A stretch of DNA of 34,791 nt from Caldifarciminota bacterium (lineage in GTDB: Bacteria; Hydrothermota; UBA3072): assembly GCA_016930175.1 (NCBI GenBank), contig JAFGHJ010000012.1:1-34791 (forward strand), given 5' to 3'. The notes beneath the pieces are model-generated. The model was not told the DNA's origin, ran no database searches, and saw only the letters and a program-made list of their open reading frames with translations. A program made the translations under genes and the position numbers. This document shows positions 21,748 to 32,872 of this stretch, one piece after another (position 1 is the stretch's first letter; each line of letters begins with the position of its first letter).

Positions 21748-22236
21748 CTACTCGAGATGCCATACAAGAGAAAAGTCTACGAGCTGACTACCGAAAGAGG
21801 TGAGAGTTGTGCTATAACCGTAATCCGAAGATGAGTGCCAGATACCAGATAGGGCGCCGACATTTACAGAAAAATTGTCGTTAATAAAATGCTCAATTCC
21901 AAGCCCGAAAAGAAGAGCGTAACTGTGAGAACCTTCACCGCCAAGTATTAATCCGCCCAGTTTTAGTAAAAGATTCGATTTCTCCTTTCTTATAGGTTTG
22001 AAGTTGGCTAACATTGAGGCAGCAAAGAAGTCGGAAGAATAGTAATCCTCCGATATTTTATAAAAACCGAAAGACGGTTCTAAGCTCACATACTCAGATG
22101 CGCCGATTTGGACGTTAGTAAACGTAATTATAGGGGACCCCCAGAATCGGACACCCATACCGAATTTTCCTGCAGTGTTATAAGCGCCGAGACTCAAGGA
22201 AAAAACTACTATACCGAGCATAGAAAACTTTTTCAT
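21748..22236 (-). CDS. Small outer-membrane beta-barrel protein, paralogue 1
   Basis: A 162-residue protein with a signal peptide (about residues 1-18, ending LSLGA). The rest is alternating polar/hydrophobic strands rich in G, S, Y and F, as in small 8-stranded barrels ('SLEPSFGFY', 'LLKLGGL', 'LLFGLGIEHFINDNFSVNVGALSG'). It ends in 'FSLVWHLE', a strand-like C-terminus. The Shine-Dalgarno AAGGAGG just upstream fixes the start. It is a tandem paralogue of the next gene. The N-terminal 40 codons are nearly identical in DNA while the rest has diverged. The specific function is unknown; OmpW/OmpA-like barrels are comparable in size. Confidence 0.75.
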   Translation of the reverse strand: MKKFSMLGIVVFSLSLGAYNTAGKFGMGVRFWGSPIITFTNVQIGASEYVSLEPSFGFYKISEDYYSSDFFAASMLANFKPIRKEKSNLLLKLGGLILGGEGSHSYALLFGLGIEHFINDNFSVNVGALSGIWHSSSDYGYSTTLTSFGSQLVDFSLVWHLE

Positions 22237-22346
22237 ATTACCTCCTTTAGTTAAACCGCTAGAAATTTTACACTTATCTTATCATCCATTTTTTTGTTTT
22301 CTCCGTTGGTGGCATTTTAGTTTTTTGCAAGTTATAGAGAAGATTA

Positions 22347-22913
22347 CTAAAGATGCCATATAAGAGAGAAATCCACAATTTGGCTGCCAATGCCTGTTAG
22401 AGAAAAATTTTCGGAGTACACATCTTCTTCGGATTTGCTGCGCCAGTAACCGGATAGAGCGCTTACATTAACTGAAAAATTGTCGTTTATAAAATGTTCT
22501 ATGCCCAATCCGAACAAAATAACATAGTTGTTGGTTGTAGACGAATAAGCATAGGAATAGTCGTCATACAAATAAGAGTAAGAGTGAGAATTCCTGGCGT
22601 ACAAACCGCCGAATTTTATTAAAAGATTAGACCGCTCTGTTTTGATGGGTTTAAAGTTTGTGAGAAGTACTGCGAACAATATATTCTCTTCGGAATCGCG
22701 GAACCCTCCGTCGAATTCATCTTCACTCTTTGTTGTATAATAACCTATAGAAGGTTCAATTTCAATTAAGTTGCTTATACCGTATTTTACAGTAGAAAAC
22801 GTAATTATAGGGGACCCCCAGAATCGGACACCCATGCCGAATTTTCCCGCTGTGTCATAAGCCCCGAGACTCAAGGAAAAAACTGCTATACCGAGCATAG
22901 AAAACTTTTTCAT
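22347..22913 (-). CDS. Small outer-membrane beta-barrel protein, paralogue 2
   Basis: A 188-residue paralogue of the gene at 21748-22236. I start it at the ATG at 22913, preceded by AGGGAGG and aligning with the paralogue's MKKFSML signal peptide; an in-frame ATG at 22982 would add 23 residues ahead of the signal peptide. It shares 'GKFGMGVRFWGSPIITF' and 'LFGLGIEHFINDNFSVNV' with its twin. It differs by a Tyr/Ser-rich insertion in the centre (about residues 110-130), probably an extracellular loop. The chain ends 'FSLIWHL'. The two probably form one transcription unit, with about 110 bases between them. Confidence 0.75.
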   Translation of the reverse strand: MKKFSMLGIAVFSLSLGAYDTAGKFGMGVRFWGSPIITFSTVKYGISNLIEIEPSIGYYTTKSEDEFDGGFRDSEENILFAVLLTNFKPIKTERSNLLIKFGGLYARNSHSYSYLYDDYSYAYSSTTNNYVILFGLGIEHFINDNFSVNVSALSGYWRSKSEEDVYSENFSLTGIGSQIVDFSLIWHL

Positions 22914-23078
22914 ATTACCTCCCTTTTTAAGATTATAAAATTTTTCACTTACCATATCATCTATTCTACCGTCAATAAACAAAGTACTTTGTTATATAAA
23001 GTAATATAATAATATTTTTTATTTTGTCAAGGGGTTTTTTATTTTTTTTATGCCAAGAAGACACTGAGTCGCAAAATC

Positions 23079-25065: not shown

Positions 25066-25101
25066 TTCGACAAAATTGTCGAATATTACAAGATTGTCGA
25101 A
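25066..25101 (+). promoter_or_regulatory. Tandem 18-bp operators, candidate enhancer sites for the NtrC-type regulator
   Basis: Site 1 is a perfect palindrome: TTCGACAA-AA-TTGTCGAA (25066-25083). Site 2 follows at exactly one 18-bp period: TATTACAA-GA-TTGTCGAA (25084-25101), right arm perfect and left arm degenerate. They lie about 140-165 bp upstream of the predicted transcription start, a normal distance for upstream activating sequences of sigma-54 activators. Binding by the regulator at 28593-29930 is inference. Confidence 0.65.
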
Positions 25102-25212
25102 AAGATACAGTTTTAAGAATCAAAAGCATAATGTAAGGTATTTGTTATATGTTATTGTTAATCAGGTATATATATTAATTATGATTTTAATTTTGGTATT
25201 AGAAAGAAAAAG

Positions 25213-25228
25213 TGGAACGGTAATTGTA
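25213..25228 (+). promoter_or_regulatory. Putative sigma-54 (-24/-12) promoter
   Basis: TGGAACG-N4-TTGTA against the consensus TGGCACG-N4-TTGCA, with GG and GT exactly 10 bp apart. There are two mismatches, one in the usually conserved -12 GC. Transcription would start near 25239. A sigma-54-dependent regulator is encoded by the last gene of the operon it would drive. Confidence 0.5.
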
Positions 25229-25304
25229 TTAAGTAGAATAGGAGTTAAAAATGAAAAAGGTTGAAATCGTAAAAGAAAAGGTTAAAATAAAAAAGGAGGC
25301 AAAA

Positions 25305-26102
25305 ATGAAAAAGCCGTTAACCTTACTTATGTTGATTGTTCCGTTATTCATCTTAGCGCAGACTGATGCTGGTGTTGCCGATGAAGAAGTCGTAATCGAG
25401 GGTGAAGTTGTCGAAGTGGAGGAAGTTTTACCTCCCAATGGTAAAGTGAATGTTATTCAGGCGAAAATCAGAACTCAAAATCAGGAAACGATTCAGGCCC
25501 ATCTTGGTCCGAAGTGGTTTTTGGATGATGAAATCGAGATAGGTGACAAGTTAAAGCTTCAGGGTGCTTTCAAAGAGAATAAGCTTCAGGTAAGAGTCAT
25601 GGTCAGGGATACGAATAGATATAATATCAGAAATGAGGCAGGAGAGCCGCTCTGGATACGAAGCAGACTTCAGGAAAAGAAGTGTATCTATAACCCTGTT
25701 AAAGAGAAAACCATGAAGGGCAAAATCGAGGAACTTTATTTGACCGGAGAAACTCATAATTTAGAAGCGCAGGTACAGACCGGAGAAAATGAAAGGGTGA
25801 GGGTTCAACTGGGTCCCGAATGGTTCCTTCAAAACAGAATTAGAGTCGGAGATGAGATAGAATTCAGGGGTGCGAACGCAGATGTCGACGGCGGTCAGAT
25901 GCTGCTGGTCCGCGAGATGAGGAATCTCAGAAATAAGGAAGAGTTGAAGCTCAGAAATAAGCAGGGGTTTCCCGAATGGGCAGGAGAAGGGGGAGAACAG
26001 CTACAGAAAAGAATACAACAGCAAAAAAGAGATGGGAGCCAGGCTGGCGAGATGCAGCAGAAAAGGTTAAACGAAGAGCCAACTCAGGGTAAAGGTCGAT
26101 AA
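25305..26102 (+). CDS. Secreted protein with two OB-like 'LGPxWFL' domains
   Basis: A 265-residue exported protein. Signal peptide at about 1-18, ending FILA. Two homologous domains follow (about 28-118 and 137-226). Each has a strand-rich start, 'LGPKWFL' (67-73) or 'LGPEWFL' (169-175), then an 'I..GD' turn, and closes with an 'RNEAGEPLW' or 'RNKQGFPEW' signature. The tail (227-265) is Gln/Lys/Arg-rich and probably unstructured. The pattern recalls small periplasmic OB-fold proteins of unknown function. I start at 25305, with AAGGAGG 6 bases upstream, because the signal peptide begins there; an in-frame ATG at 25251 adds a charged 18-residue lead. First gene of the operon with a beta-barrel, kinase and regulator. 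Confidence 0.75.
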   Translation: MKKPLTLLMLIVPLFILAQTDAGVADEEVVIEGEVVEVEEVLPPNGKVNVIQAKIRTQNQETIQAHLGPKWFLDDEIEIGDKLKLQGAFKENKLQVRVMVRDTNRYNIRNEAGEPLWIRSRLQEKKCIYNPVKEKTMKGKIEELYLTGETHNLEAQVQTGENERVRVQLGPEWFLQNRIRVGDEIEFRGANADVDGGQMLLVREMRNLRNKEELKLRNKQGFPEWAGEGGEQLQKRIQQQKRDGSQAGEMQQKRLNEEPTQGKGR

Positions 26103-26112
26103 TGGTGAATCT

Positions 26113-27120
26113 ATGAAAGTTAGAAATCTCGGGATGGCAGGAGGAGCAATTATTTTGCTCCTCCCCTTTCTTTTATTAGGTTATACCGGTATTTCGGTGT
26201 CTAATTCGTACACGGATAATTTGTATTTTATAGGCGAAATTGAAAAAGCCGGTAATAAAACGAACGTCTCACCGTTTTTAAGCTATTCAGGTTTTTTGGA
26301 TTTTGATTATTCGGGAGATGCAACAATTATCGATTTCGATGAAGAAGATATATTTATTGGCAATCGAGTGGGTATACAGAAAAGATTTAATCTCCCGGGT
26401 CTTGGCAGCAGAAATTATTTGTATCTGAATGGCTATAATTTCATCCCTCTTAAATACGAGAATTATGGACTGAACGAAATATACGGAGGAGATTCCCTGT
26501 CTTTTTATATTGGTAATTTTTTATTGGGAGTGGGAATTGGAGCTGGTTATGTTGACTTTAGTTCCGATTCAGTCGAAGATTATTTTAAACCGGAAATAAC
26601 AGCCGACTTATCGATACCGATGCCTTATTTTTATTTTGTTCCCGGTGCAGGTGCCGGTTTGATGATTTATGAAGATGATCGGCTGCCTTATTACAATTTT
26701 TCTCTTTCTTTAGACTTTCCCTTAACAGGGGACTTTACAATGTCTTTTGGGGGTAATTACTCCCGATTATCGGAACCCGGAAACGATTATCCTATTTCAG
26801 ATTCACTCCTTCTGGATCCTTTTTTTGAGAATGAAGGGATTACAAGAAGTGTCGATCTCGATCTTTCAGTAAACAAGACTTTTGTTGAGCAGAAGGCTTA
26901 TTTGAGCTTATATTTGACTCTCTTTGAAAAAGACTTCTTTGAGGTTAGCAATATACGGCGGAATGATTCGGGATTTTTTGCTGGCTTGCGATATACTAAG
27001 ATAATAAACAATAACACTTCATTCTTCGTCAGCTTTAGTTCGGAAATTAATAACTCTACAATAGAAGATTTAAATTATACAAAAAACAGCATTGGCGGAG
27101 GAATCCGATTGATTTTCTGA
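26113..27120 (+). CDS. Outer-membrane beta-barrel protein
   Basis: A 335-residue protein with an N-terminal hydrophobic signal (about 8-23, 'MAGGAIILLLPFLLLGY') followed by many amphipathic strands. These are rich in Tyr, Phe, Gly and Asn with Asp/Ser turns ('SFYIGNFLLGVGIGAGYVDF', 'FTMSFGGNYSRL'). It ends in 'GGGIRLIF', with the terminal Phe used by the BAM machinery. About 14-16 strands are plausible. No porin family was recognised. It lies 10 bases after the secreted protein gene and 22 before the kinase, so it is co-expressed with them. A sensing or export partner of the system is inference. Confidence 0.75.
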   Translation: MKVRNLGMAGGAIILLLPFLLLGYTGISVSNSYTDNLYFIGEIEKAGNKTNVSPFLSYSGFLDFDYSGDATIIDFDEEDIFIGNRVGIQKRFNLPGLGSRNYLYLNGYNFIPLKYENYGLNEIYGGDSLSFYIGNFLLGVGIGAGYVDFSSDSVEDYFKPEITADLSIPMPYFYFVPGAGAGLMIYEDDRLPYYNFSLSLDFPLTGDFTMSFGGNYSRLSEPGNDYPISDSLLLDPFFENEGITRSVDLDLSVNKTFVEQKAYLSLYLTLFEKDFFEVSNIRRNDSGFFAGLRYTKIINNNTSFFVSFSSEINNSTIEDLNYTKNSIGGGIRLIF

Positions 27121-27142
27121 AAAATTTTGTTAGATTAATACA

Positions 27143-28591
27143 ATGAAATCTAAATCAGTAATACTGTTTTCTATATTTGTAGTTATAGGGGTACTGGCTT
27201 TCTTTACAGTCCAAATAACCAATAGAAGTATCGAGCGTATATATAAAAACAGCCACACGACGACTTTTCAGTTGTTGTCTGAGATTGCCGACAATTATGT
27301 GAAGAGAGATCTGGAGCTTAATAGAATGGAAATTGGCAAACTAAAGAACAAAGGTAAAGATATCCTGCGAGATTATTTTGAAAATAATTATATTGCCTTA
27401 AGTGAAAATCTCTATGGTATCTGGATTTTTAGTGATTCTCTTTTGAAAAGTTCGAGCAGATTTCCCGGGCAGGAAGAAATTATACTGGATTTTTACCGCA
27501 GGGAATTGAAAGATAAAGATTATGGAACCCTGGTGAATTTAGAAGGAGAACCATTTTATCTGGTTAATATAATTTCTGAGAGTTACAGTATCCTTCTTTT
27601 GTCTAAGAGTGTCTATGGTGAGACAGAAAATATTACACAGGTTCTGGATTCTCTTGTTTCTACATCGAATCTTGTTTACTTTGCGATAGTTGATGAGGAT
27701 GAATCTCCTATAATTTACAGCTCTATTTATGAGGGTTTTTTGCCGGTGGAAGGAGAGGGAAGCCATATTATTGAAACACCTGACGGTAAAATATTCCAGC
27801 TTGAAGAAGCAAATAACGAAAAGACTGTTATCGCCGGTTTTTCAATGCGTCCGCTTGAACGTGTTATTGCGTTTAACGGGGTATTTCTATTAATAGTTAT
27901 AGCTGGTTTTTCGGTTTTTCTTGGATTCCTTATATTTAATTTGACAAGGACCGAAAGATATAGAATAGACAAACAAAGAGAAATTCGTCATCTTGAAGAA
28001 ATTGGCGCTCTTTCTTCGGGCTTTTCTCACGAAGTGCGGAATTCTCTTAACACACTTTCTTTGCTTGCCAGAAGTATGGAAGGTGAACAGGGAAATATTC
28101 TTAAACAAGAAGTTAAAAGAATGAATCTTGTTATGGATTCAATAAAGTTATTGATACTTTCCGAAGTTGATAAAGAAGATATCGATATCGATAATACAAT
28201 CGTTGAGGCTATCTCTTTGACTGATAATAAGAATAATAAAGTAGAGATAAAATTGGAGTCTGCGGTCAAGTTGAAGATACAGGCGAATAGGGCTTTGTTA
28301 GTATCCGCGTTTTCAAATATCTTTAAAAACGCCGTTGAAGCAGATGCCGATAAAGTTAGAATTCTAATGCGAAAAGTGGGAAATATTGTAAGAATTGTTA
28401 TTATCGATAACGGAAAAGGAATAGAAAAAGACAGTATCAAAAGAGTTTTTGAGCCTTTTTATTCTAGTAAGAGACAAAGCGGAATTGGACTTTATTTGGC
28501 ACGTAAAATTATCGAATATCACGGCGGCAGTATAAAACTTGAGAGCGGTAAAGAAACCAGGGTAGATATACTTTTGCCTATAAAGGATTAA
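27143..28591 (+). CDS. Membrane sensor histidine kinase
   Basis: A 482-residue kinase. Transmembrane helices at about 7-25 and 245-267 bracket a ~215-residue periplasmic sensor region that may be double-PAS/Cache-like. After a short linker, the H-box 'GFSHEVRNSLNTL' places the phosphoaccepting H296. The ATPase domain has the N-box 'NIFKNAVEA' (N396), G1 'DNGKGI' (422-427), 'FEPFYSSK' and 'GIGLYLARKI'. It belongs to the NtrB/AtoS-like type that pairs with sigma-54 activators. The next gene, 1 base downstream, is such a regulator. The sensed signal probably concerns the envelope, given the two exported proteins encoded ahead of it. Confidence 0.93.
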   Translation: MKSKSVILFSIFVVIGVLAFFTVQITNRSIERIYKNSHTTTFQLLSEIADNYVKRDLELNRMEIGKLKNKGKDILRDYFENNYIALSENLYGIWIFSDSLLKSSSRFPGQEEIILDFYRRELKDKDYGTLVNLEGEPFYLVNIISESYSILLLSKSVYGETENITQVLDSLVSTSNLVYFAIVDEDESPIIYSSIYEGFLPVEGEGSHIIETPDGKIFQLEEANNEKTVIAGFSMRPLERVIAFNGVFLLIVIAGFSVFLGFLIFNLTRTERYRIDKQREIRHLEEIGALSSGFSHEVRNSLNTLSLLARSMEGEQGNILKQEVKRMNLVMDSIKLLILSEVDKEDIDIDNTIVEAISLTDNKNNKVEIKLESAVKLKIQANRALLVSAFSNIFKNAVEADADKVRILMRKVGNIVRIVIIDNGKGIEKDSIKRVFEPFYSSKRQSGIGLYLARKIIEYHGGSIKLESGKETRVDILLPIKD

Positions 28592-28592
28592 A

Positions 28593-29930
28593 TTGAATAT
28601 CTTAATTGTCGAGGATGAGGTAAATCAGCGAAAATTACTTAAAAAAATTCTTTCAAAAGAAGGATATACTGTCGAAGAGGCAGGAAACGGGGTAGAGGGG
28701 ATCGATTTATTTTTTAGGGGAAATTTTGACCTTGTGCTTCTGGACCGGAAATTACCCGATAAGGAAGGTGTCGAAGTTTTACGAGATATAAAAAAAATAA
28801 ATCCAATTATCCCGGTTATAATAATTACCGCTTTTGCCAATGTCGCTAACGCCGTGGAAGCCATGAAAGAAGGCGCTTTTCATTATTTGACAAAGCCCAT
28901 AGACCCGGAAGAGCTTATATTAATAATTAAAAATTCTCTCGATAATCTTAATTTGAAAAGAGAAAATATAGAATTGAAGGAATCTTTAAGGGAAAAGTTT
29001 AGGTACGATAAGATTATATATAACTCCGGGATTATGGAGGATTTGATGTCCCTTATATTCAGGGCATCCAAGAGTGACGCGAATGTTCTTATAACGGGTG
29101 AGAGCGGTACCGGTAAGGAGCTTATTGCCGGTGCTGTCCATAATCTTTCTTTGCGAAACGAGAAACTTTTTGTTACCGCGCACATCGCGTCTCTAGCCGA
29201 GACGCTTATAGAGGCGGAATTATTCGGGCATGAAAAAGGAGCTTTTACAGGAGCGGATAAAAGGCGAATAGGCAAGTTCGAGTTTGCCTCAGGCGGCACG
29301 ATATTTCTGGATGAGATAGGAGAATTGCCTAATTCGGTGCAGGTCAAGCTGCTGCGGGTAATTGAGGAAAAGAAAATAACGAGGATTGGTTCGAATGAAG
29401 AAATTCCTATCGATATAAGATTGATCTGCGCTACAAACAGGGATATAGAGAAAGAAGTCGAAAAAGGAACGTTTAGAGAAGATTTGTATTACAGGCTGAA
29501 CGTAATCAGAATCCATGTTCCGCCTCTTAGAAAGAGAAAAGAAGATATTCCTTTGCTCGTGTCTAATTTTATAAAGACTCAAGGTAAAAAAGAGAAAAAG
29601 GATGTTAAAGGGATTACGGATGAAGCCCTGAAAAAAATTCTTAAATATGATTTTCCGGGCAATGTCCGGGAACTAGAGAACATAATTAAGCGGGCTGTTG
29701 TTTTTTCCCGCGGTGATTATCTTACCGGTGAAGATATTTCTGTACCGGTGGATAAGAGATTAAAATACAGCGGCAAATTAAATGATGGAGTTAGAAACCT
29801 CGAAAGAGGTATGATAGAAGAAGCGCTTAAAAAACATGACTGGAACCAGAGTAAAGCCGCTAAGGAATTGGGTATCTCCGAGCGGACGATAAGATATAAG
29901 ATAGGGAAATACAAGATTAAAAAAAGCTAA
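28593..29930 (+). CDS. NtrC-family sigma-54-dependent response regulator
   Basis: A 445-residue activator with three domains. The receiver (1-115) has acidic E7-D8, phosphoacceptor D51 in 'LLDRKLPD', T79 and K101. The AAA+ domain (about 140-375) has Walker A 'GESGTGKE' (169-176), the sigma-54-contacting 'GAFTGA' (216-221) and Walker B 'TIFLDEIGEL'. A Fis-type helix-turn-helix lies at the end ('WNQSKAAKELGISERTIRYK'). The family's usual 'NC' after Walker A reads 'AH' here. The start is TTG, 1 base after the kinase stop, with AAAGGA upstream. Operators at 25066-25101 are candidate targets, so the operon may be autoregulated. Confidence 0.95.
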   Translation: MNILIVEDEVNQRKLLKKILSKEGYTVEEAGNGVEGIDLFFRGNFDLVLLDRKLPDKEGVEVLRDIKKINPIIPVIIITAFANVANAVEAMKEGAFHYLTKPIDPEELILIIKNSLDNLNLKRENIELKESLREKFRYDKIIYNSGIMEDLMSLIFRASKSDANVLITGESGTGKELIAGAVHNLSLRNEKLFVTAHIASLAETLIEAELFGHEKGAFTGADKRRIGKFEFASGGTIFLDEIGELPNSVQVKLLRVIEEKKITRIGSNEEIPIDIRLICATNRDIEKEVEKGTFREDLYYRLNVIRIHVPPLRKRKEDIPLLVSNFIKTQGKKEKKDVKGITDEALKKILKYDFPGNVRELENIIKRAVVFSRGDYLTGEDISVPVDKRLKYSGKLNDGVRNLERGMIEEALKKHDWNQSKAAKELGISERTIRYKIGKYKIKKS

Positions 29931-30021: not shown

Positions 30022-30384
30022 CTATTTCTTATAACTTATATTAAGTTTGGCAGCTATGCCGTGAAGTTTTCGGTCGTAAGTAAAAATAGGAGTTTCGCTT
30101 AACATTGCCGAAGAAAGAAGATGGACATCGACATAACGCAACCCTTTACCCATCAGATACCGCAAATCGATAAATTCCATTACCTCTTCGTGAGTGGCAA
30201 CTTTCGCAAAAGGCAAAGCATTGAGTAAAGTAAGTATTTCCGAACGTTTATTCAGATTTCCACAGGCAAGTTCGCCGACGACAAAAGGATGACACACTAC
30301 CATACCGCGATTTAGTAAGTCCTCAAGCAGAGAATCTCCATCTCGAAGATGCGAAACCCAAACAGAAGTGTCGACAAGAATCAT
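30022..30384 (-). CDS. vapC: VapC-type PIN-domain toxin
   Basis: A 120-residue PIN ribonuclease. The four acidic active-site residues are in place: D5 in 'LVDTSVWV', E39 in 'VVGELACG', D86 in 'YVDVHLL' and D104 in 'TYDRKL'. VapC toxins cleave specific RNAs (often tRNA or rRNA); the target here is unknown. It follows its antitoxin gene by 3 bases, the usual arrangement. No sign of decay. Confidence 0.93.
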   Translation of the reverse strand: MILVDTSVWVSHLRDGDSLLEDLLNRGMVVCHPFVVGELACGNLNKRSEILTLLNALPFAKVATHEEVMEFIDLRYLMGKGLRYVDVHLLSSAMLSETPIFTYDRKLHGIAAKLNISYKK

Positions 30385-32166: not shown

Positions 32167-32571
32167 TCAACAATATTGTTTTAAAAAATCGGCTGGTTTT
32201 AATATTTTTATTTTTCGAAATTCGGAAAGTTCCAGTAAATGAGCATCTCCGGATATAATGAAATCAGCTTCCGATTCGATTGCGCATTCAAGTAGCGTAT
32301 TATCTTGAGGGTCTTTTTTTATTATATCTAATTTGATCTTCGGACTAACAAGTTCTGCAATCGAATCAAGAGAGGAAATTATGTAACGTATGTTTTCTTC
32401 TGCAATATTAAACTTTTCCCGTGCTAAAACTCCTTCAATTTCACTAATAATCTCTTTTGAAATGTATAATTCTATTTCGCCCTCTATTGCGAGTTCTAAA
32501 CATTTTCTGGGAGAGCCGCCGAATAAAATAGCAGAAATTAAAACGTTAGTGTCAAAAACAACTTTAAACAA
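32167..32571 (-). CDS. PIN-domain toxin of the COG1569 / PIN_3 type
   Basis: A 134-residue protein of the 'putative toxin-antitoxin system, PIN family' group. Acidic active-site candidates are D7 in 'VFDTNVLISAI', E44 in 'IISEIEGVL', D90 in 'DPQDNTLLECA' and D109 in 'SGDAHLL'. The 'KDPQDN' and 'ISGDAHLL' segments distinguish this group from VapC proper. It starts 1 base after its antitoxin gene. RNA target unknown. Confidence 0.9.
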   Translation of the reverse strand: MFKVVFDTNVLISAILFGGSPRKCLELAIEGEIELYISKEIISEIEGVLAREKFNIAEENIRYIISSLDSIAELVSPKIKLDIIKKDPQDNTLLECAIESEADFIISGDAHLLELSEFRKIKILKPADFLKQYC

Positions 32572-32572
32572 G

Positions 32573-32812
32573 TTACTGCTCTTTTCTGTAAGCTTCTATT
32601 TCTTTTTCCACATCCGCTTCAGAAAGCCCTTTGTCCCGGTTAAGGATGTCTCCGTAAGAAAAAATCTTTTTCCATCTTTCTTTTCTATCGATGTAAATTC
32701 TCGCCGCTTCACGTACAAGTTCAGACCTTGAACGGGATTCTTCTTTCGCTATGTCGTCAATTTTCTTTAATAAATCCTTCTTAAACGATATATTTACAGT
32801 TTTATTCTTCAA
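32573..32812 (-). CDS. Ribbon-helix-helix antitoxin (CopG-like)
   Basis: A 79-residue antitoxin. The N-terminal strand 'NKTVNISFKKDLLKKIDDIA' and helix 'SRSRSELVREAARIYI' form a ribbon-helix-helix; the acidic C-terminus ('LSEADVEKEIEAYRKEQ') probably binds the PIN toxin. I start at TTG 32812: GGGAGG (32818-32823) lies 5 bases upstream and the RHH strand begins immediately. The in-frame ATG further upstream (32872) would place the promoter inside the gene and add a Tyr-rich lead. Pair partner is the toxin at 32167-32571. Confidence 0.85.
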   Translation of the reverse strand: MKNKTVNISFKKDLLKKIDDIAKEESRSRSELVREAARIYIDRKERWKKIFSYGDILNRDKGLSEADVEKEIEAYRKEQ

Positions 32813-32823
32813 TTTAACCTCCC

Positions 32824-32872
32824 ATATACAATATATGTATCTATAATATATACAATTTTTGTATTTTGGCAA
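32824..32872 (-). promoter_or_regulatory. Promoter/operator of the RHH-PIN pair
   Basis: On the minus strand TTGCCA (32867-32872), 18-bp spacer, TATTAT (32843-32848). Copies of ATTGTATAT flank the -10 on both sides (near 32824-32832 and 32848-32856), suitable as RHH half-sites for autorepression. Confidence 0.5.

Follow-up and report, generated by a model that had tools for sequence, protein, structure and literature searches.

A probable self-activating sigma-54 two-component operon encoding an exported double OB-fold protein and an outer-membrane barrel in the uncultured phylum WOR-3

What might four adjacent genes for two exported proteins, a membrane kinase and a transcriptional activator accomplish together in a bacterium of the uncultured WOR-3 phylum? 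The locus lies in the window, the whole stretch of DNA analysed (34,791 nucleotides), which belongs to a genome of 2,344,829 bp (2.34 Mb; G000). The four ORFs are co-directional on the plus strand and their coordinates bear out the intergenic gaps of 10, 22 and 1 bp claimed by the first-pass annotation, whose labels for the products (a secreted two-domain protein, an outer-membrane barrel, a membrane kinase and an NtrC-type regulator) were confirmed by Pfam and AlphaFold2. Our main reading, to which we assign a probability of roughly 0.78, is that these genes form a dedicated sigma-54 two-component operon for an envelope response, with positive autoregulation, a single-operon regulon and the exported proteins as the response.

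Table 1. Features of the locus, in positions of the window
Feature	Positions	Strand	Remarks
Operator 1	25066..25083	.	perfect palindrome TTCGACAA-AA-TTGTCGAA; genome-unique exact match
Operator 2	25084..25101	.	degenerate copy next to operator 1, TATTACAA-GA-TTGTCGAA, intact in its right half
Sigma-54 -24/-12-like element	25213..25228	+	TGGAACG-N4-TTGTA; consensus form in relatives
Secreted protein, two OB-fold domains (MamS/YgiW-like fold)	25251..26102	+	likely start ATG 25305
Outer-membrane 16-strand beta-barrel protein	26113..27120	+	AlphaFold2 model, structure matches
Membrane sensor histidine kinase	27143..28591	+	HATPase_c; NCBIfam AtoS/ZraS; invariant His296
NtrC-type sigma-54 activator, TTG start	28593..29930	+	Pfam domains, orthologue alignment

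Elsewhere in the window, a PIN-domain gene and an adjacent ribbon-helix-helix gene (32167-32872) likely form a toxin-antitoxin pair, a further PIN-domain gene (30022-30384), encoded on the other strand, follows directly after the operon, and two tandem paralogous small exported proteins without an assigned family are encoded at 21748-22982.

For the kinase (P0003), Pfam analysis revealed a HATPase_c domain (1.3e-20) and a HisKA score below the cut-off, and the best NCBIfam profiles were AtoS/ZraS. An extracytoplasmic domain is predicted at about residues 27-241, and the predicted phospho-acceptor His296 is the same in all 16 orthologues compared. The regulator (P0004) matched the Pfam families Response_reg, Sigma54_activat (7e-68) and HTH_8 and combines a receiver Asp51, an AAA+ domain with GAFTGA and a Fis-type HTH, as characteristic for NtrC-type regulators. 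Its recognition helix reads SERTIRYK, and the pattern SERxxRYK/R is conserved among the linked regulators and absent from the three other NtrC-type regulators of the genome that were aligned. When compared with equivalog profiles, all scores stayed below the cut-offs: P0004 reached 452.6 bits for AtoC (cut-off 714) and 408 bits for ZraR (cut-off 760), and P0003 reached 103.4 bits for AtoS (cut-off 646) and 96.6 bits for ZraS (cut-off 479).

No Pfam family was found for the secreted protein. An AlphaFold2 model obtained with a 17-sequence alignment displays a beta domain at residues 47-125 and another at 152-233, for the most part with pLDDT 80-95; both match the OB folds of PriB/SSB with Z values of about 10 in a structure search; a sequence search for relatives of solved structure gave no significant match. 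A profile match to MamS was weak (best E 0.0016, in three of nine OB proteins), and a weak match to the OB part of RecG agrees with it; the score was 13.8 bits against the MamS equivalog cut-off of 200 bits, the OB fold alone being shared. There was no match to the Pfam family BOF at E values up to 1, and BOF/YgiW did not appear in the list of structure matches, an absence that is no evidence for a differing fold. The secreted protein likely starts at ATG 25305 (Shine-Dalgarno sequence AGGAGG) instead of 25251, because its homologues begin there and a typical signal peptide starts there, and the start at 25251 may belong to a small leader ORF. The stretch 25251-25304, which has a ribosome site of its own, resembles the coding sequence of a leader peptide, MKKVEIVKEKVKIKKEAK, and in the sister genome G001 a similar leader, MERVEFIKKRK, does not share the reading frame of the OB gene. 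Members of the exported OB-fold family were detected in 33 of 147 WOR-3 genomes and, within another phylum, in 76 of 297 sampled genomes, and no homologues were found in plasmids or viruses.

The second gene product was modelled by AlphaFold2 as a 16-strand barrel (pLDDT 89, pTM 0.80), with structure matches of Z 17-21 to solved barrels (21.2 for CdiB, 18-19 for porins). In the model, an N-terminal hydrophobic helix, a closed antiparallel barrel and the C-terminal Phe335 are those of a porin-like outer-membrane barrel. Type I barrels and the barrels of Hydrothermia-type loci show moderate homology (hhalign probability 77%, E 2e-5). The barrel neighbours in G070, G082 and G088 were left out as representatives of the same barrel because the hhalign probability was 4%. 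The barrel could also have an unrelated housekeeping role.

Upstream of these genes, two 18-bp operators had been proposed. The first (TTCGACAAAATTGTCGAA) is indeed a perfect palindrome with arms of 8+8 bp; the second (TATTACAAGATTGTCGAA) abuts it with three mismatches and is half-degenerate, so that the proposal stands in full for the first site only. For footprinting, the 220 bp upstream of the first gene were compared in 28 homologous loci, which span several families, and dinucleotide shuffles (200 rounds) provided the background. The palindrome was present within two mismatches in 20 of the 28 upstream regions (shuffle mean 0.005, never more than 1) and the consensus promoter TGGCAC-N5-TTGCA within one mismatch in 15 (shuffle mean 0.03), counts that are not independent events as the loci are related. 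In many relatives (e.g. G017, G116, G118, G119, G113, G105) a second TTGTCGAA half-site lies 17-18 bp downstream of the first one, and in others about 33 bp downstream, while in G088 and G063 the palindrome has diverged and a CGAC-centred palindrome remains. In the OB loci examined from the other phylum the operator was absent. Judged from these upstream sequences, the conservation of operator and promoter alongside the genes greatly exceeds what chance would give.

The TGGAACG-N4-TTGTA element of the first-pass annotation was located between the operators and the first gene as TGGAACGGTAATTGTA. Also, rpoN is present in the genome (G000:C10:43957-44424), together with five high-scoring sigma-54 activator domains. 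The consensus element occupies the same place in relatives, and the combination of a -24/-12 promoter and an upstream enhancer site, as expected for a sigma-54 NtrC-type system, was encountered across the loci, although the -12 box of the own genus reads TTGT instead of the near-invariant TTGC. In spite of this deviation the promoter in the window is probably functional, because its TGGAAC/TTGTA form is common to G001, because a relaxed pattern of the element is enriched in the own genome (18 places versus 5 for the control), and because a near-identical copy, TGGAACGATAATTGTA, lies downstream of another sigma-54 activator of the own genome. At L032:7220-7400, TGGAACGATAATTGTA is found next to the gene for a sigma-54 activator of 1540 aa, which carries a long N-terminal region as a fusion, and is preceded by repeated TTTGTCATA/TGACATA sites, which looks like a second sigma-54 circuit of the genome with its own operator. 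TGGAA-type sigma-54 elements also closely precede genes whose small exported products look rich in beta structure (L185, L187 and L189, on C26 and C27 of G000).

The linkage of the four genes recurs in other genomes: the complete order OB-barrel-kinase-regulator was found in 13 WOR-3 genomes of seven families (G000, G001, G017, G032, G050, G098, G099, G100, G105, G116, G118, G119 and G128), while four further genomes (G018, G024, G029 and G042) have barrel-OB-kinase-regulator; the loci of G084, G085 and G113 are interrupted by contig ends. Among named genomes, a scan with a profile built on five OB proteins matched Candidatus Hydrothermus pacificus, several 'candidate division WOR-3' MAGs and two further MAGs identical to WOR-3 genomes of the other searches, which places the window in this phylum. 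At the level of sequence, the gene set, its linkage, the folds and the conservation of operator and promoter are findings of this analysis.

Several relatives have operons to which genes for a ferritin-like DUF2202 protein and for a membrane protein of the DUF4405 family are added, and in Hydrothermia-type genomes the product of the first gene is small, exported and rich in arginine, with a D-x-D-G-I-P-D-like motif. Members of the DUF4405 family are heme b-binding relatives of the ferrosome protein FezC (PMC11334425). Because of these additions and of the arginine-rich protein, the relatives hint, not decisively, at an output tied to envelope metal/redox stress. Extended operons with DUF2202 ferritin-like/DUF4405 heme-cytochrome-like genes were seen at L026:11037-11651, L096:1897-3446 and L106:998-2807, and the DUF4405 protein of L096 gave weak HTH-like matches in its C-terminal part. 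Outside WOR-3, the arrangements OB-OB-kinase-regulator (L170) and DUF4405-OB-OB-kinase (L175; 4898-7902) were observed. Upstream of the latter, there are two tandem TGCAAA-type palindromes (TGCAAAATTTGCA and ATGCAAAAATTGCAT) and a TGGCAT-N5-TTGC sigma-54 element. L175 is possibly the same circuit with another operator and, because its tandem palindrome differs and is again combined with a sigma-54 element, the theme may be wider than the operator described here.

How would such an operon work? The kinase would sense an extracytoplasmic condition via the domain between its two membrane helices and would phosphorylate Asp51 of the regulator, which would then bind the tandem TTCGACAA/TTGTCGAA sites (25066-25101) and oligomerise, and whose GAFTGA motor would open sigma-54 RNA polymerase at the promoter element about 110 bp downstream of the operators. 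A single transcript would yield the exported double-OB-fold protein and the 16-strand barrel plus extra kinase and regulator, that is, positive feedback. The exported proteins would be the response, most likely envelope protection or repair, perhaps against metal/redox stress, and they may in addition act on the kinase in turn, in the manner of ZraP on ZraS. We infer phosphotransfer, regulator binding, the direction of regulation and the sign of the feedback, the signal and the function of the output. Positive feedback fits the anatomy of the operon, since the activator, a bEBP with GAFTGA, is encoded by the last gene behind its own operator. The label 'envelope-sensing' is plausible, as the two products without a regulatory role are exported and about 210 residues of the kinase are predicted to form an extracytoplasmic domain. 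Given that the upstream DNA switch is conserved together with the four genes across the phylum, the operon very probably switches itself on upon an envelope signal.

The uniqueness of the operator bears on two other explanations. According to one of them, the palindrome has nothing to do with the regulator, being perhaps a terminator or a mobile repeat, and the operon is under ordinary sigma-70 transcription; palindromes are common and the upstream sequence is repeat-like and AT-rich. However, the exact palindrome occurs once in the whole genome, no T-run follows it, and families throughout the phylum have kept it at this promoter jointly with the sigma-54 element, so that we consider this explanation highly improbable. 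With up to three mismatches, 25 genomic places were detected versus 20 for a control pattern, which corresponds to background, and two such sites lie side by side here. Operators at random sites genome-wide would, like a genome lacking rpoN or related genomes with the four genes unlinked, have spoken against the first-pass annotation, and none of the three was observed. The exact palindrome is unique, and each near-match inspected away from the locus either falls within an ORF or has no sigma-54 element. The regulator might instead control more genes, its own operon being just one target of a larger regulon. This idea draws on exported-protein genes elsewhere in the genome that are preceded by sigma-54-like elements and on G105, where a second OB gene (L095:6291-7016) with no kinase or regulator of its own carries tandem TTGTCGAA operators and a sigma-54 element, as our main reading also expects if the operator belongs to the trans-acting regulator. 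Yet a search of the genome found no other exact operator, and the three near-matches in the own genome (up to two mismatches) have no sigma-54 element nearby, two of them being inside ORFs. Over 27 WOR-3 genomes, the operator was matched with at most one mismatch at 19 places (control pattern: 1 place), 14 of them at this operon, leaving few off-locus sites, and a larger regulon appears unlikely.

More weight is due to a ZraPSR-type metal/envelope-stress system, in which the OB protein would mainly bind a ligand in the periplasm and serve the kinase as its sensor or repress it, with negative feedback as the result, and the barrel would be a channel for a metal or ligand. The best profile relatives are AtoS/ZraS for the kinase and AtoC/ZraR for the regulator, operon variants contain the DUF2202 and heme-binding DUF4405 genes described above, and ZraP represses ZraSR while being itself driven by ZraR from sigma-54 promoters (PMC4987338). 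On the other hand, the OB protein is, according to its AlphaFold2 model, not a helical protein of the Spy/ZraP type, a metal-binding motif would be hypothetical, and DUF2202 and DUF4405 are missing from the locus in the window. We regard this arrangement as possible, although on the doubtful side, and retain the positively autoregulated response operon as our main reading.

The circuit logic is already known and, by analogy, resembles ZraPSR of E. coli and Salmonella, where a sigma-54 regulator drives zraSR and an exported envelope-stress protein (PMC4987338). In both cases a sigma-54 response regulator and a membrane kinase would control their own genes and an exported protein, and ZraS/ZraR are among the closest curated profiles. 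The outputs differ, being a double OB-fold protein and a porin-like barrel here and a Spy-like zinc chaperone in ZraPSR; no match to the Pfam families ZraP or Metal_resist was found in the proteins of the locus, and all its genes are in one operon with one promoter and the operator TTCGACAA-N2-TTGTCGAA. AtoSC of E. coli, which uses a palindromic enhancer of two 20-bp sites (PMC3118216), provides the best NCBIfam profiles for kinase and regulator, but the scores are far below the equivalog cut-offs and the locus has no short-chain fatty acid genes. MamS, a magnetosome protein with a predicted OB fold modelled on YgiW (PMC3905215), shares this predicted fold and the weak profile match; however, the score is far under the cut-off and no magnetosome genes were seen at these loci. 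In ygiW/VisP, the gene for an exported OB-fold protein is tied to a two-component system (QseBC/PreAB or VC1639) and to envelope stress (PMC5636140; see also PMC2653508). In contrast to the locus, that set has no barrel gene, and the locus protein has two OB domains and no BOF match. The regulators of QseBC/PreAB and VC1639 are not known to be sigma-54 activators. PrsK/PrsR of the PEP-CTERM/exosortase system is likewise a sigma-54 kinase/regulator pair, and P0004 scored 410.9 bits with PrsR (TIGR02915; cut-off 502.6 bits), but the gene set differs and a PEP-CTERM protein and an exosortase are absent from the operon. The earlier statement that no system with this gene set is described agrees with our search of the open-access literature, where the absence of a description is weak evidence. 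Within that literature, what seems to be new is the union of an OB-fold protein and a barrel in one operon under one promoter, the dedicated operator and the conservation throughout a candidate phylum.

According to one proposal, control of the cell exterior is the general role of sigma-54 (PMC3162934). We tentatively suggest, at somewhat less than even odds, that the circuit is a phylum-wide, stand-alone sigma-54 circuit of WOR-3, largely confined to its own operon, for making the exported OB-fold protein and its partner barrel, and that it forms part of a broader class of operons, as yet undescribed, which combine OB-fold, kinase and bEBP genes, in some cases along with genes for DUF2202 ferritin-like proteins and DUF4405 cytochromes, and which would protect or remodel the envelope against metal/redox stress. 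The locus is a clean case in an uncultured phylum, where the sequence reveals the output genes jointly with the operator, the promoter and the recognition helix of the regulator. An unannotated exported OB-fold family has now been assigned a context, which would help to name many hypothetical genes.
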